NCBI GenBank assembly: GCA_018398765.1
Contig: JAHBMJ010003232.1
Span: 29,019-52,776, forward strand
Source: Chromera velia
Taxonomy: Eukaryota > Sar > Chromeraceae
DNA length: 23,758 nt
Reading direction: 5' to 3'
Both the position numbers and the translations under genes were made by a program. Below the pieces are notes generated by a model that was not told the origin of the DNA, did not search any database, and saw nothing but the letters and a program-made list of their open reading frames with translations. Of the stretch, positions 3,951-23,491 are shown in pieces. Position 1 is the stretch's first letter; each line of letters starts with the position of its first letter.

Positions 3951-4041
3951 CTAGGCCTATCACAGAGAAAAAAAAATAATTAAAGCCAATTCTCGCGTAA
4001 TTTTTTTTTTTNTTTTTTTTTTTTTACTGTGATACGCCTAG
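3951..4041. mobile_element. 91-bp hAT-like MITE nested in the larger element
   Basis: Terminal inverted repeats CTAGGCCTATCACAG (3951-3965) and CTGTGATACGCCTAG (4027-4041) match at 14 of 15 positions. They are flanked by ATAATATA (3943-3950) and ATAATGTA (4042-4049), an 8-bp target-site duplication with one change. The core is A-rich then T-rich and includes the window's only N (4012). Eight-bp duplications and short inverted repeats are typical of hAT-derived MITEs. Confidence 0.65.
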
Positions 4042-10108: not shown

Positions 10109-10252
10109 TGGACCCTTTATATCCGGCTCAGCGCTTCGGCCATCCATGAAAACCACCATGAAATCTTTGAAATTAGGTAAAGAAAAAGGGAGAGGCAAGG
10201 GTCGCTGACATGATGCACCAGAAAAAAATTAAAAAACATACAGTAGAAATCG

Positions 10253-13552: not shown

Positions 13553-13838
13553 CTTCCCGAGTTATACCCCAGACAGAGGCACAGCAGGAACACGTCCTTG
13601 TGCAACAAGGTTTCTGCTCATTTCCCGTCTTTGGCGGGGGCAGAGCAAAGCTTGTGGAGCCCTTTTCAGGCGCAGTTTTGTGTAGATGATGGGTGGCGTT
13701 GTTGTCATGCTGTGACACGCTGAAAGGTTCCAGAGGACGATGAATTGTGCGTGCGTGCGTCGGACTATGCATTCGAAGAAGGCGTCCGAGGCATAGTGTC
13801 TGTCCAGCGATCAATCTGTCTGTGCATTCTTTCTGCAG

Positions 13839-16800
13839 AAAGACACTTCTGGACAGAGACCAAACGCACGAAGAAAAGGCTGAGCGTCAAAAGAACTCCT
13901 AGGAAGATGACTGCCGAAGGGGGACCATCGGCGCCCTATGTCTGCACAGGGGGAGACATCTACCGCCTTAACACCCCCACAGAGGCCCTTGATTTGGTCT
14001 GCACGGTCAGTGAGGAACTGATTTGATGTGGCATTGGCACGGATGGTCTGTGGAGGGCATGAAATCATGAAAGAGACGGGCAGGTTGAAAAAAGACACCA
14101 CAACATTGATGCCGGATGATGAATCTCTCATCCGTCTCTCCACGCCGTTTCTTTCTTTCTCTGTTTGCAGAAACTCGAAATCCCAAGCCGAGTACCGAGG
14201 TCGGTCCATCTTGTCCGAGTGTCGTCTCATTTCTTCTGCTTGACTTGTTGACTAGATCGCCTTTTCTGTCTCTTGTTCTGTGTTTTTGGAAATTCGATCT
14301 GCCCCTCCTTTCCTGTTCCTTTGTCCACTGCGTCTTTTGCAGTCCTTGCTGTTGATTCTGGAGCCTTTTGGCCCTCCGTACTTCATGATCTCCTTGATGC
14401 AATTCGTTCCTTTCGTCCTTGCTTTGTTCGTCTTTCTGTCCATCCATCCGTCTCTCTTTCTCTTTTCGCCTTCGGATCTTCCCCCTCCCTCTTACCCCCG
14501 TTTCTGTTCTCGACAGAAATGAGGGCGGAGCTCTGGCAGACAAAGAAGATCACAGAAAGAAAGAGGGCTGCCCTGCTGGAAGACCCCCTTTCTTCCACAT
14601 GATGACGGAGGACCCGAAACTCAGAGAGCCTTCTCTGAAGGAACGGTTGGCGAGGGGGAATGACATTCTCATCAGGACTGCGGCGGAAAAGTCGAAAAAG
14701 GTACTGCAGTTACAAGGATGAGAGAGAGCCCTAGGAAAAAAGAGACCCCGGCATGTCCGGCTCGCTTCACCCTCTGCACGTAGTCTAGCTCGCACCCTTT
14801 CCAACTGTATCTGGGACAGAAGCGGCTGAACGTTCACTCATAGAGGCAATCAAACAAACCCTTACAAGCACCCTCCCGATCAAACTTTCCTCGACTCCAT
14901 GTTCCCCTATTCCTCCCTCGTTTCGCTGCACATGCATGCCCATGCCATGTTTGCTTTTCCACATCCTTGCACATTCATGTACCTTCACTCAGGTGCCCCT
15001 TGACTTCTCTGGAGAGCCCGAGAAGGAACAGCAGAAGGAGGGTGTGCGAGTGGGAACGAAAGAGACCGGTAGGTCAGTCAAATTCTCTATTGTCCTACTT
15101 CCTCCGTTGGTCTGTTGACTTGCACTGTGAGACAAATGAGGGGGGCGACCATCTCTGGCAAGCACGAAGTCTCAGTTGCCTCTCGCACGAACTGACGAGC
15201 CACCGACCTAATGAATGGAACCATCAGTCATTCAATGAAGCAAAGGAGACAGAAGGAGCAAAAAGTGAGGAATGAGGGGAAAGAAGAGACATGAAACAAA
15301 ACCAACAACACAGTTCTTTTTGTTTTCGCTCCACTGTAACCTGCAAGCCTCTCTCTTGACCCTCTGCTTCTCCTTCAACCCCCCCTCGGGAGTGCAGAGT
15401 GCTGTTCTTTTGATCCCATCCCCCGTCTAGAGGGTCACGGAGCAGCTGACGGAGCGGATCTCCAGCAGATCGATGTCATCTCCGAGGAGGCCTACCCGAA
15501 GTTCCCTCCCTGGCTGTTGGTGCACCCCCCGGATCACGAGCACCTGTTGCCACTCCTGATGCGGTCCTTCGAGGAACAGCTGAAGGCCAACAGCATGACT
15601 GGACGGGGACCGGAGGTGCTCTCAGTGTCCACAACATGCGAAGAAAAGTTCACAAGCGAAATCCGCAACCACATCGCACTTCTCCACGCACAGCTGGACT
15701 TGGTCCTGGTAATCCTACCAAAGCAGAACGGAGAGAAGATCTACGCAGAGCTGAAGGATCAGATGAGCAGAGGCGCCCTCTCTTGTTCACTCCAGTGTGT
15801 CAAGACCGAGACGTTGCAGAAGAAGGGCGCGAGGGCTGCCGCAAAGCTTTTCGACCAGATGATCTGCAAACAGGTCAGGTTGGACCAGCACTCTCCAACT
15901 CCCCGTGCCATCCCGGATGTCTTTTTTCTTTCTGACACCTCTATTTGCTCAGACGTTTGCATGACACACACAATCGCTCTCTGCGCCAATGAAGAAGAAA
16001 GAGAGCGAAATGGTGGAAGCTCCTTCTCGCAGTCACACGTGAGAGTCCGAAAAAACCATGCGGGGCAGTGCCTTTTTATTTTCTCCTCCTTCCAAGTGTG
16101 CATGTGAGTGCAGGAAGGTCTGCTGTGGAATCACAAAGCCTCCGAGCTCCATCCGACGATGGTGGTCGGCATCCACACCCCTTCCTCTGCCACGACGGGA
16201 CTCACGGTCGTGTCCTTCTCGGCCTCGTTCAACAGTTCCTACACCAAGTATCTCTCTTCGTCCTCATTCATCAAATCCCATCCGCCTGAAGAGACGGCAG
16301 AGCCCTTCGCGCAGTTCCTCAGAAAGGCTCTCGAGCACTTCCGAAGGAATCAGGAACACGCCAGAGGCCCATTGAAGCAGAACTCTTACCCTGCCCGCAT
16401 CATCATCTACAAGAGCACCGTCTCCGAGGAGAGGCAAGGAGACCAGGAGATCAAGGCACTCACCAATGTCCTCAGGGGGGTGGATGCTCGATGGGCCTCT
16501 AATGTCGAGGTGGCCTTCCTTGTCATCACCTCCACCACACTTCCTGTGGCAGAGACCCCCTGCCTGAGAGGCCTACGAGGAGATGAAAGAGGCCAAGAGA
16601 CTGCGGACAAGAAAGGCGACCTCACCAACATCCACGCCCTGACCACCATCGCCTCAGGTGTGAGTGCTGGGAAGACGTCTGGCCTCTGCGTCCCCCACCT
16701 CCCCAAGAACTCCGCTGCCCCCGTCCACTACACCGTCCTCTACTGGCAGGCAGGGAGCATGACGGCATCTGATCTGCAGACCCTGACCAAACGGCTGAGC

Positions 16801-16956
16801 ATGCTCTGCCAGGACCAGCAAGGGTGCGTTCGCGTCCCTGCTCCTCTCGTGTGCGCCTCGAAGCAGTGCGCCCTGTATTTGCAGCTCGAGACTAGGAACC
16901 AGAGTGAGATCAACAGGGCCATTCCGTACGTGCACATGGACACTCCTCCCTGCTGA
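13839..16956 (+). CDS. Argonaute/Piwi-family protein with a degenerate slicer site
   Basis: Argonautes bind small-RNA guides and silence complementary RNA. Six exons fit GT-AG borders with matching phases: 13839-14005, 14171-14199, 14517-14700, 14993-15068, 15431-15873, 16114-16956. An optional earlier exon at 13553-13609 also keeps phase. Exons 3-4 look like the end of PAZ and linker 2 (NDILIRTAAEKSKK). Exon 5 is MID: LDLVLVILPKQNGEKIYAEL, then LQCVKTETLQKKG. Its guide 5'-phosphate contacts Y (15742), K (15754), Q (15793) and a final K (15868) are kept; one usual Lys is Gln. Exon 6 is PIWI: MVVGIHTPSS, RIIIYKSTVSEERQ, APVHYTVLYWQ, VPAPLVCASKQ. The DEDH catalytic residues read His (16174), Glu (16291), Ser (16414) and Ser (16858), so cleavage is unlikely. 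The visible product is about 580 residues against the usual 800-1000; the N domain and most of PAZ are missing or in unfound exons. A start at ATG 13907 is possible. Confidence 0.85.
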
Positions 16957-20107: not shown

Positions 20108-20613
20108 GCTGATACACGGCTGCATGTTTCAATGACATGATGATGTTTGACGCTTCAACTTTGACGGTCACTGCTAGTAACGGTGCCGTACGTGTTACTA
20201 TCCGGTTGGATTGAAGAAGCTTTCAATGACTCGACGGGATCAGATTCCACAACGTATAGAATTCCTTGTTGTCAAAGACCGAGTGCTGTGTTGGCTTGGA
20301 AATCTCCCCTAGCAACTGAAACCATCTGTTGTTTCCAATGGGAATTTCTGTTGTTTGAAGTTTCACGTACATGAACGATCCAACTTTCAGACTGAACTGG
20401 CTGACAAAGAAAAGAGGGATCAGTCTGCTTTGGTGTCAGTCTCATCTTTGTGTCTGGTTCTGATCTAGACATCGTTCCTAACTTCCTCCGTGTCGCAGGG
20501 CACTGCGCCCGAAAGGCAGGCCGGGCTTTGTTTGACCAGCTGTGTTTTCTTTTTTCGATTTCCGTCTCTGTGTGTGGTGCGCTCACTTCTTCCGTCCACC
20601 TGCAGAGAAAGCC

Positions 20614-23491
20614 ATGGAGCTCACCCTGGAGAATTCAGACATCGCCAAGAGATGGACGGTTCTCTACATGAGCCCAAAAAGGAAGGGCTGGATTTTGCTC
20701 TCTCACTACACGACGCACGGGTTTGAAGAGTTTGACTCCTCCACAGAGTCAGGCGTCGACCGTCTGAAGAAGAAGATTGTGCAGAGAGACAACCTGCCAG
20801 TGGCGTTGGTGTTTGACTGCGCAATCACGGAGGGTCTCGCGAAACAGGCCGAAATCGTGAAGCACCTCGATCCGAAACCGCACTTCGTTCTGGTCGCCCC
20901 CACCACAACAACCAACCCATGCTGTAGGGGAGCGCAGGGAGCTTTCATCAACCTCTGCGCACTCATCGGCATTGCAGGACCAGAAACACGAATATCGTTT
21001 GTAGATAGAGAGTGCTGGTGCAGACTGGGATCCAAAGCATCGCGACTGCTCAGGTGGATCCCTAGCTGGCTGCCTTCTTCCCTCCTATGCGATGAATGAT
21101 GTGTTTTTTTCGTCTGGAGTCCGTTAACGTCTCCGGCTGCTCTTCTGTTTCGCCACAATCCCTGTCCTTGGCTGTTTCCTTTTTGTCGCTGTACGTGCTT
21201 TTCTGTCCCCCTTCTCCTCTGCACCTCTTCCTTTCTTTCTCTCTGGGTGCGCAATGTCGTTCTGTCCGCCTGCCTTCTTGCTCTCTCTTTCTTTTGGCTT
21301 TCTGCCGAAATGCACAAATTCTTGCGGCCATGCGAGGCTTTCGTCTCCCACTTGTTGTCCCCTCCGTCCCTTTCTTTTTTTTGTCCACAGTTGTGCTCTG
21401 GAGGAGATACCTTCTGGTGGTGTGAGCGCGTTCCTCCCTTACGGAGCCCAGACAGCAGAGGCGTTCCTTCCTCTCTGTCTGCGCTTCGAGACGGCGTGGG
21501 TCCAGCGATACTTCGCATGGGTGGACAGGGAGGTCCTCGAGCTGGCAGCCAAACTGGCAGACAACAGGGGGGTGGCAGACGACGAGGTGCCCTTTGCAGC
21601 ACAGAATCTGGAGGTGCGGTGCAAGGCGTCAATCGACAATAAGGACCCCCCCTTTGCTTCCATAGCGTCTAGACTCACCTCCCGGCCCCCCATGCCGGAC
21701 ATCTTCGCCCCCCCTCCTCCCAGATTTGTGGTCCCTTTCGGTAGTGTTGCTACCGGCATTGCGAACGGAGCGAGGAAGACCCTGGCAGAGAGACAACTAG
21801 CAGATTTCTGTGCGGACGTGAGGTTCGTGTCTCCCTCGTCGCTGTCTGAGGGCAACAGGTGGGAAGGGACTGTGACCCAGAGGGAAACCAAGCCAGGGGA
21901 CGAGGTGTGGTTCCTCTGCGATACGGGGGGAGACGGGGAGGGGCTGAGGGAAACAGTGGATTGGCTCAAGAGGTCGGCTCGTAGGTCTGGTTGTGTGTGT
22001 GTGTGTGTGTGTGTGTGGAATGGAACGAGAAAGTCAGGAATGAGCACGCAGTCTGTTAGGTTGTCTGTCTCTCTGCCTGTCTGACCAGCTGAAACGGGAA
22101 GTAAAAGAATGCACTGAGAGGTCAAAAAGAGAGGGGGGAAAGGAATCGATTTTGAAATTGTCCTTTTGTCTGCCCGCCGAGATCTGTACGGCAGGGGATT
22201 TCATGATCTTTGATCGAGATCTTGTGCCTCGCAAGAGAATCTTTCCCCACAAAGACTTTTCTCACAACAAAGGAGTCCAGGAGTCTGGTGGGGGAATTTC
22301 AGAGTTTGCTGTTGCTTGTGAGAGAAGTTCTCCCCATGTTTTCCTTTTGATTCTCCGAATGGGAGAGAGAGGCCTTCTTTCTCCAGCTCCCTTTCTGTCC
22401 GCCTTCTGTCGTGCCTTGCTGACCGTGTTCCGCTCACTTTTCTTTTCCTCTGTGGATTTGCGTCTGTTTGCAGGTCAGACTGTAATGTTCGAAAACACTG
22501 CGTTGTCCTCTTCCTCCCCCCCTCCCCCGCGGAATGGTGGCGTCTCCTGATCTTTCTCCACATCGCCATAGAGGAGGCTCATCTGGTCATCCCGGTATTT
22601 GGAGAACTGGGGGGGGACTCCTCGGAGGGCAGCTCCGCAAGAATAGAGGCGGTGTCACAGCTCCTTGCCTGTCCGCTCTCTGTCGAGTCACTCCTCTGGC
22701 ATCTGGTCCCATTTCCAAGGCTTCACTTTCCTCTCCTCGTGCGGGTGGGTGGGTGGGTGCCTGGATTTGGTGTTCAGGTATCTTGTTGGTCTGTCTGTCT
22801 GTCGGTTTTTTCATCCTTCTACAGAGGTATTTCGGGTCTGCTGTGCTTGTACGTTGCTTTCGTTTCCTCCCTCCGGCCCTTCTTTTGACCCCATGATTCC
22901 ACCCGCATGTATCCCTCCCGAATGAAATGAATTCTCGAAACTCTCTCGGGGTTGTTTGTTGCGTTTCGCTCTCGGCTGTCTTGTCTTGTCTCTGGGAGAC
23001 GGTACTCCGGTCACGTCATGTTAGTCACTTGTTCGTTCCCTTTCCACAGGTCCCAGACTGGTTATCCTCGTTGTGTTTGTTTCTGTCTGTCTGCGAACTG
23101 GCTCCTTCCTTCCTGCATGCAGATTACAGAGGTGAAGAAGCCAGAAGACCTTCCCAAAGAAGACGGAGACACAGAGGGGAAAGAGGGAAAGGGAAAGGGA
23201 AAGGGGGGAGAGACGGAGTCTAGACAGAAGAAGGGGGGGAAGGGCAAAGGAAAGCGGTCGAGAAAGATGGGATTCCGCAAGGGGGGAGACAAGGAGGTTG
23301 AGAAGAAGGAGAAAGATCCTCTCGTCTCTTTGCAGAGCCTGCTTTCTGGGGCTTCTCTTTTGACCTCTGCGTCCCTGAAGGAGGCAGCGTTCGGGTCTGT
23401 CTCCTTCAACGATTGCCCCATGGAGGTCTTGAAGGAAGTGTGGGCAGACAGAAGGACATTCGAGGACTCAGCCAATATTCCTGCACCCTCG
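20614..23491 (+). CDS. ADF-H domain protein with a possible TIR-like domain and K/G-rich linker (3' end off window)
   Basis: Four exons join in phase: 20614-21053, 21391-21984, 22474-22744, 23123-23491, giving 558 residues so far. The frame is open upstream of the ATG to an acceptor at 20605, so earlier exons may exist. Residues 1-135 resemble the actin-binding ADF homology fold of drebrin/cofilin: KRKGWILLSHY, STESGVDRLKKKIVQ, PKPHFVLVAPTTTT, RGAQGAFINL. Exon 2 adds an unrecognised alpha-helical part (ETAWVQRYFAWVDREVLELA) and a Pro-rich stretch (DIFAPPPPRF). Residues about 315-420 recall a TIR fold: GDEVWFLCDTGG, then KHCVVLFLPPSPAEWWRL, then AHLVIPVFGEL, like the first strand, the S..Y..S.WC helix region and the IPV strand of TIR proteins; no catalytic Glu can be assigned. 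A KGKGKGG-type linker and a Leu/Ser-rich end (DPLVSLQSLLSGASLL) follow. The last donor (GTCAGT, 23492) implies more exons to the right. Confidence 0.68.
21991..22017. repeat. (TG)n microsatellite in an intron
   Basis: Starts six bases after the donor of the exon ending at 21984. It was read through as Cys/Val in the unspliced frame. Confidence 0.85.

Follow-up and report, generated by a model that had tools for sequence, protein, structure and literature searches.

The Argonaute of Toxoplasma gondii (Tg-AGO) carries E/S/E as its catalytic residues and is reported to have weak Mg-dependent slicer activity (PMC9935688); it is also described as keeping YKQK and a PAZ domain and as having RGG repeats (PMC2877743). 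A solo-PIWI protein of Trypanosoma cruzi is described as having PIWI without PAZ and is said to be common to other trypanosomatids (PMC3166047). For the AGO8/AGO9 group of Phytophthora, tetrads such as E-D-N-H and S-D-G-_ are reported, variation in the tandem copies extends to MID residues, transcripts of these copies are about 1000- and 100-fold lower, and some may be pseudogenes; PAZ and PIWI are not both displayed for P. sojae AGO8, the missing one being unspecified in the text (PMC6284064). Prokaryotic short and pseudo-short Argonautes (AfAgo, APAZ/Ago pairs) are described as combining MID with an inactive PIWI and no PAZ. The scenario proposed for prokaryotes is inactivation of PIWI followed by reduction of PAZ, and the losses of catalysis and PAZ are proposed to have gone along with a change by which Argonautes came to regulate other effectors (PMC10954474). 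Our literature search turned up no paper that deals with the Argonautes of either Chromera or Vitrella.

The stretch of DNA analyzed here, hereafter the window, has a length of 23,758 nucleotides (C3136:29019-52776 of a 178-Mb assembly) and contains an Argonaute gene which, modeled by homology and splice phases, has six exons, five introns that are all GT-AG and consistent in phase, and 558 codons without a stop. Exon F (16114..16956, + strand) encodes 280 residues of PIWI domain and the stop codon TGA, and matches Pfam Piwi with 48.2 bits (cutoff of 28.9). Models of the gene recover both the MID and PIWI folds, and the RNase H-like PIWI fold of exon F is recognizable in structure comparison. 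The top fold matches of the MID model are MILI and Siwi, with modest E values of 6e-5 to 2e-4, and the model also matches unrelated lumazine synthases (E of 8e-4). When exon F alone is compared with PDB sequences, Piwi proteins are the best 9 of 11 matches; with the family profile they are the best 11 of 40, followed by AGO2 at 6e-18. Fold Z values and the Foldseek and VIA ranks do not separate AGO from Piwi. On these sequence comparisons, the gene is a member of the eukaryotic Piwi clade, its similarity to Piwi proteins exceeding that to proteins of the AGO clade.

Catalytic positions in exon F were placed by pairwise alignment to a sponge Piwi, family alignment with paralogs, and a profile match to MIWI. 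The tetrad of a slicer is DEDX, where X is H or D; that of exon F is H-E-S-S. His replaces Asp at the first position (16174..16176, + strand) and Ser replaces Asp at the third (16414..16416, + strand), both in the pairwise and family alignments. Glu is retained at the glutamate-finger position (16291..16293, + strand; family alignment), with a register uncertain by one residue because three close paralogs have E-D there. The fourth position is Ser (16858..16860, + strand), where the four closest paralogs have Thr or Ser. All three types of alignment bear out the tetrad and PIWI landmarks first read by the initial annotation, and thus a PIWI domain without slicer residues. Because both metal-binding aspartates are absent, the protein should not slice. 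The same annotation held that three residues were lost together, which overcounts: across the six other Piwi-type genes of the genome, position 4 is Thr or Ser in four, Asp in one, Lys in one, and His in none, so Ser was probably inherited. As read from the alignments, it is the two losses of Asp, not three losses, that set the gene apart from its four close paralogs. The fold, said to be kept, stands as regards the RNase H core but not beyond it: in the family alignment, exon F has neither the conserved QRF...DFFISHQEVTQGS stretch nor the NWPG motif nor the C-terminal YYL/YFL. Among columns invariant in the other rows, 34 of 94 in PIWI and 16 of 45 in MID are lost in the window gene. In other Argonautes, the C-terminus packs near the 5′ end of the guide.

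The MID domain is encoded by exon E (15431..15873, + strand; 147 residues) and is 39–41% identical to that of four Piwi-type paralogs and 27% identical to that of C608. The paralog alignment places a 5′-phosphate pocket at 15742..15870 (+ strand), formed by Y at 15742, K at 15754, Q at 15793, and K at 15868, and Y-K-Q-K is invariant across the window gene and all five aligned paralogs. With this pocket, the MID domain may bind a guide.

Upstream of MID, the gene model holds about 130 residues, and at the other end the conserved C-terminus is gone. Exon A (13907..14005, + strand; CTGGDIYRLNTPTEALDLVCT) appears to combine a new start codon with a remnant of the ancestral N-domain exon; tblastn finds 46–48% identity over 27–28 residues (E of 0.013), the profile E value is also 0.013, and the donor context is ACG/GTCAG versus ACC/GTCAG in C1592. 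Comparison of exon starts shows the 5′ part of the ancestral exon at 13839..13906 (+ strand), recognizable but in another frame: KDTSGQR resembles EDTPGQR, the acceptor CTGCAG is retained, and the frame differs from that of MTAEGG...CTGG. Since the start of the ancestral exon is frame-broken, the old N-terminus is disrupted, and 13907 is the probable new start of translation. Exon B (14171..14199, + strand) is a tentative micro-exon of 29 nt that bridges the phases, and exon C (14517..14700, + strand) stands in place of the PAZ/L2 exon, without similarity to PAZ; both were placed by GT-AG borders and phase fit. Exon D (14993..15068, + strand) is a possible remnant of L2 (EGVRVGTKETG resembling KKVRVMTTENG). 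Codon log-odds in the expected frame are +0.13 for exon A, +0.065 for C, +0.17 for D, and +0.21 for E, and all exons except B show paralog-like codon usage in the expected frame only (+0.07 to +0.21 per codon). The nine codons of exon B score −0.20, so composition gives it no support, and the scores of the five introns lie between −0.29 and −0.96. Least certain in the gene model is the 5′ half, whose exact structure we infer.

The larger change in the gene had escaped the initial annotation: PAZ is not detectable. The query was the exon of C3293 that bears PAZ (217 residues), used in splice-aware alignments with 15 shuffles each. Between positions 10200 and 15430 of the window, the spliced score for PAZ is 72 versus a shuffle mean of 83 (z of −0.9), whereas PAZ is found in four of four other Piwi-type genes tested, namely C192 (197; z of 11.5), C608 (249; z of 17.9), C278 (525; z of 49), and C2301 (666; z of 97), with shuffle means of 73–86 overall. 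Identity to C3293 over MID and PIWI is 36% for C192, 43% for C608, and 46% for the window gene. C192 and C608 are thus no closer to the query and their PAZ is still found, so the miss in the window cannot be put down to divergence alone. The 3′ part of the PAZ exon as sole query finds no match in C192 either. The Pfam PAZ profile, PF02170, has no match on the contig of the window and five elsewhere in the genome; the spliced search is the stronger test because PF02170 misses C608, in which the spliced search finds PAZ.

Two other places for the missing domains were considered. A PAZ hidden by introns is ruled out by the splice-aware search with its positive controls, and PAZ or N exons further upstream by a paralog profile from N to L2 that found nothing in 20 kb of upstream sequence (L030/L031). 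Inside the window, this profile has a single frame with E below 1, 13724–14023, which is the frame of exon A (E of 0.013). Spliced queries with N and L2 are weak tests: N gives z of 3.8–5.8 in the window, from the CTGGDIYRL piece of exon A, and 4.8 in C192 and 3.8 in C608, and L2 gives 3.1 in 13600–15430, 1.6 in a wider stretch, 1.4 in C278, and −1.2 in C192. The loss of most of N, L1, and L2 holds in the gene model but is not shown by these spliced searches. Relative to the canonical long layout of N-L1-PAZ-L2-MID-PIWI, the window gene departs in PAZ.

Across the genome, Pfam Piwi matches at least 20 places on 14 contigs, and loci were grouped by eye into seven of Piwi type (C1592, C3293, C2301, C278, C608, C192, and the window gene) and seven that are AGO-like. 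The search of the same genome for a catalytic Argonaute, suggested by the initial annotation, gave catalytic-looking candidates; by pattern, three of the seven AGO-like loci have all four D-E-D-D motifs (L017, L019, and L020). Locus L014 has the first three, and about 340 bases beyond its last aligned exon the contig comes to an end; in L015, L016, and L018, the patterns used pick up only the first and the last, but L015 and L018 do have FRDG. Tetrads of the Piwi-type genes are D-(E/D)-D-T in C1592 and C3293, D-D-D-T in C278, and D-(E/D)-D-S in C2301, where a frame disruption requires a switch to a second frame for the reading. C608 has K, D, and D and C192 has D, G, and K, neither with a clear finger. 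Because C192 (L021) and C608 (L013) have PAZ but degenerate tetrads, catalytic change recurs in the gene family. D-x-D-T is a feature of PAZ-bearing paralogs with both aspartates (L009, L010, and L012, corresponding to C1592, C3293, and C278); in a literature search for a DEDT tetrad, the term was not found among the top-ranked papers.

The full-length paralogs C1592, C3293, C2301, and C278 are 37–50% identical to the window gene over MID and PIWI and share with it the exon boundary MICKQ/GGFLW, the YKQK pocket, and KQC after position 4. Unlike the window gene, they keep N, PAZ, and both aspartates. C3293 and C278 retain the C-terminus in frame, C2301 has it in another frame, and C1592 lacks it. 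The frame change of C2301 lies inside the last PIWI exon (L011:6881-7260), with YASKQ...QLYYL continuing in the other frame, and may reflect an error in sequencing, a short intron, or decay of the gene. C1592 (L009) and C3293 are a close pair with 96% amino-acid identity; the 3′ end of C1592 is without the QIKSQKAVNR stretch and has a frame change before the C-terminus.

Selection has apparently long kept the reading frame, with constraint on PIWI relaxed, possibly recently. A branch model of five genes and 419 codons rejects ω = 1 on the window branch (2dlnL of 52.8; 20.8 for MID and 35.3 for PIWI), and ω of this branch does not differ from that of the other branches (2dlnL of 1.2). The estimate of 0.07 is unreliable as a value because dS is saturated. 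Neutral simulations at the observed divergence left 0 of 2000 sequences without stops; when only half of the differences were taken as neutral, 5 of 2000 were stop-free, and when only a quarter were, 56 of 2000, so that only a short neutral phase is likely. Changes on the window branch at codon positions 1, 2, and 3 number 77/241, 62/273, and 45/120 (0.32, 0.23, and 0.38; p = 0.005), compared with rates of 0.18, 0.14, and 0.40 in C278, and for PIWI alone the rates are 0.31, 0.25, and 0.34 (p = 0.26). Rates this mildly unequal point to relaxed constraint.

The gene also has a 92-bp stretch (16715..16806, + strand) in common with an interspersed repeat family, at 74–80% identity in nine of nine fetched copies. 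The family has at least 29 genome matches to a 201-bp piece. All nine fetched copies (L032–L040; e.g., L037:1638-1729) have 75–92 bp that resemble the PIWI exon, and long pairwise matches between copies are mostly 85–97% alike among the matches listed. The match of L032 spans 92 bp of the window gene versus 62 bp of the paralog C1592. A DNA search with 16700–16820 of the window recovers only the gene itself; repeat copies surface when the repeat's own sequence is used. The gene may be under pressure from repeats, because a family with its 92-bp piece could seed small RNAs against it.

We give roughly even chances to the reading that the gene is an intact coding gene for a non-slicing, PAZ-less MID-PIWI paralog of Piwi that acts as a decoy or scaffold. 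The ancestor would have been a full-length N-PAZ-MID-PIWI gene of Piwi type, from which PAZ, most of N, L1, and L2 (per the gene model), and both catalytic aspartates would have been lost, and which would persist as an intact coding gene for a MID-PIWI protein of roughly 558 residues. A pocket for the 5′ end without a clamp for the 3′ end would hold small RNAs weakly or briefly, which would suit a decoy or scaffold that does not cleave and that competes either for small RNAs or for the partners of the full-length relatives C1592, C3293, and C278. We infer that such a competitor or scaffold is the most likely role. Guide binding without PAZ is itself doubtful, because PAZ mutants in Entamoeba are reported to have their small RNAs lost or degraded (PMC6796981).

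The main rival to a retained decoy or scaffold, somewhat unlikely in our view, is a decaying Piwi duplicate that stayed functional for a long time, later lost the 5′ half, and now experiences weak selection or none. The broken frame of the ancestral exon start at 13839–13906, the joint absence of PAZ, catalytic residues, and C-terminus, and the near-even codon-position rates in PIWI (p = 0.26) all fit decay, and there is precedent in the degenerate tetrads of Phytophthora AGO8/AGO9, some of which are considered pseudogenes (PMC6284064). Yet 558 codons remain stop-free across five GT-AG introns with coding composition in five of six exons, ω = 1 is rejected, and even with the neutral share of the differences cut to a half or a quarter, few simulated copies stay open (5 and 56 of 2000). 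The same losses around a core fold that stays would also be expected if the protein were a scaffold independent of any guide, its MID-PIWI fold serving only protein-protein contact and no RNA being bound. MED13 of Mediator has a MID-PIWI fold that serves protein-protein contact. Such a scaffold would need none of the four 5′-phosphate residues, all of which are retained, and we regard it as quite unlikely.

Far less probable is an ordinary full-length silent Piwi with a PAZ too diverged to be seen or on a missed exon. A profile miss means little when PF02170 misses C608 despite the PAZ found there by spliced search, and the weak trace of the N query, comparable to those in C192 and C608, suggests that N-domain sequence may be left. 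Nevertheless, PAZ is found in C608 and C192 but is at shuffle level in the window despite 46% identity over MID and PIWI, the N-to-L2 profile is negative over 20 kb upstream, and only about 1.4 kb with four introns lies between exon A and MID. Least credible are an error in the assembly or the sequencing and a better alignment yielding Asp/Asp/His. No sign supports an error, the sole N in the window being at 4012, and replacement of Asp by Ser takes at least two codon changes within a change that spans two residues, from DG to ST. An alternative reading of the tetrad is ruled out because anchored landmarks flank every position on either side, whether the alignment is pairwise, of the family, or to the profile.

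Comparison with the described systems places the putative decoy or scaffold among changes that are each known separately. Like Tg-AGO as described, the window gene has changed catalytic residues, with Ser for the second Asp, and retains YKQK; unlike the window gene, Tg-AGO has PAZ, RGG repeats, and reported weak slicer activity. It shares with the solo-PIWI protein of T. cruzi a protist PIWI without PAZ, but that protein is described as common to trypanosomatids whereas the window gene is a copy within a genome. The degenerate tetrad is like those reported for Phytophthora AGO8/AGO9, which are recent oomycete tandem duplicates with very low transcripts. In the assembly, the light-harvesting family PF00504 has 58 matches, which makes the organism look photosynthetic, and the plastid psbA family PF00124 has none. 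If the organism is a photosynthetic relative of apicomplexans, the gene joins the E/S/E Argonaute of Toxoplasma as another degenerate Argonaute. With both losses, and with full-length relatives in the same genome, this eukaryotic Piwi copy is a further case for testing in which order the losses came and what function remains.

The prokaryotic short Argonautes, as described, are like the window gene in having MID, a catalytically dead-looking PIWI, and no detectable PAZ. They differ in having an N-L1-L2 partner or effector nearby, none of which was recognized among the window frames tested. In those neighboring frames, no family scored over its cutoff, and in a eukaryote a partner may be encoded elsewhere. 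Open frames at 587–1138 (HPIP, E of 0.0046) and 20536–21096 (PIH1, E of 0.29), both below the cutoff, are possibly neighboring genes. It is conceivable, though unlikely, that the gene is an independently evolved eukaryotic counterpart of short Argonautes, which lost slicing and PAZ and was kept as a sensor of guide 5′ ends or a decoy that controls its full-length relatives. Argonautes with changed slicer residues and Argonautes without PAZ are each known in protists; by analogy, the apparent combination of both in a eukaryotic gene of Piwi type resembles the prokaryotic short type.
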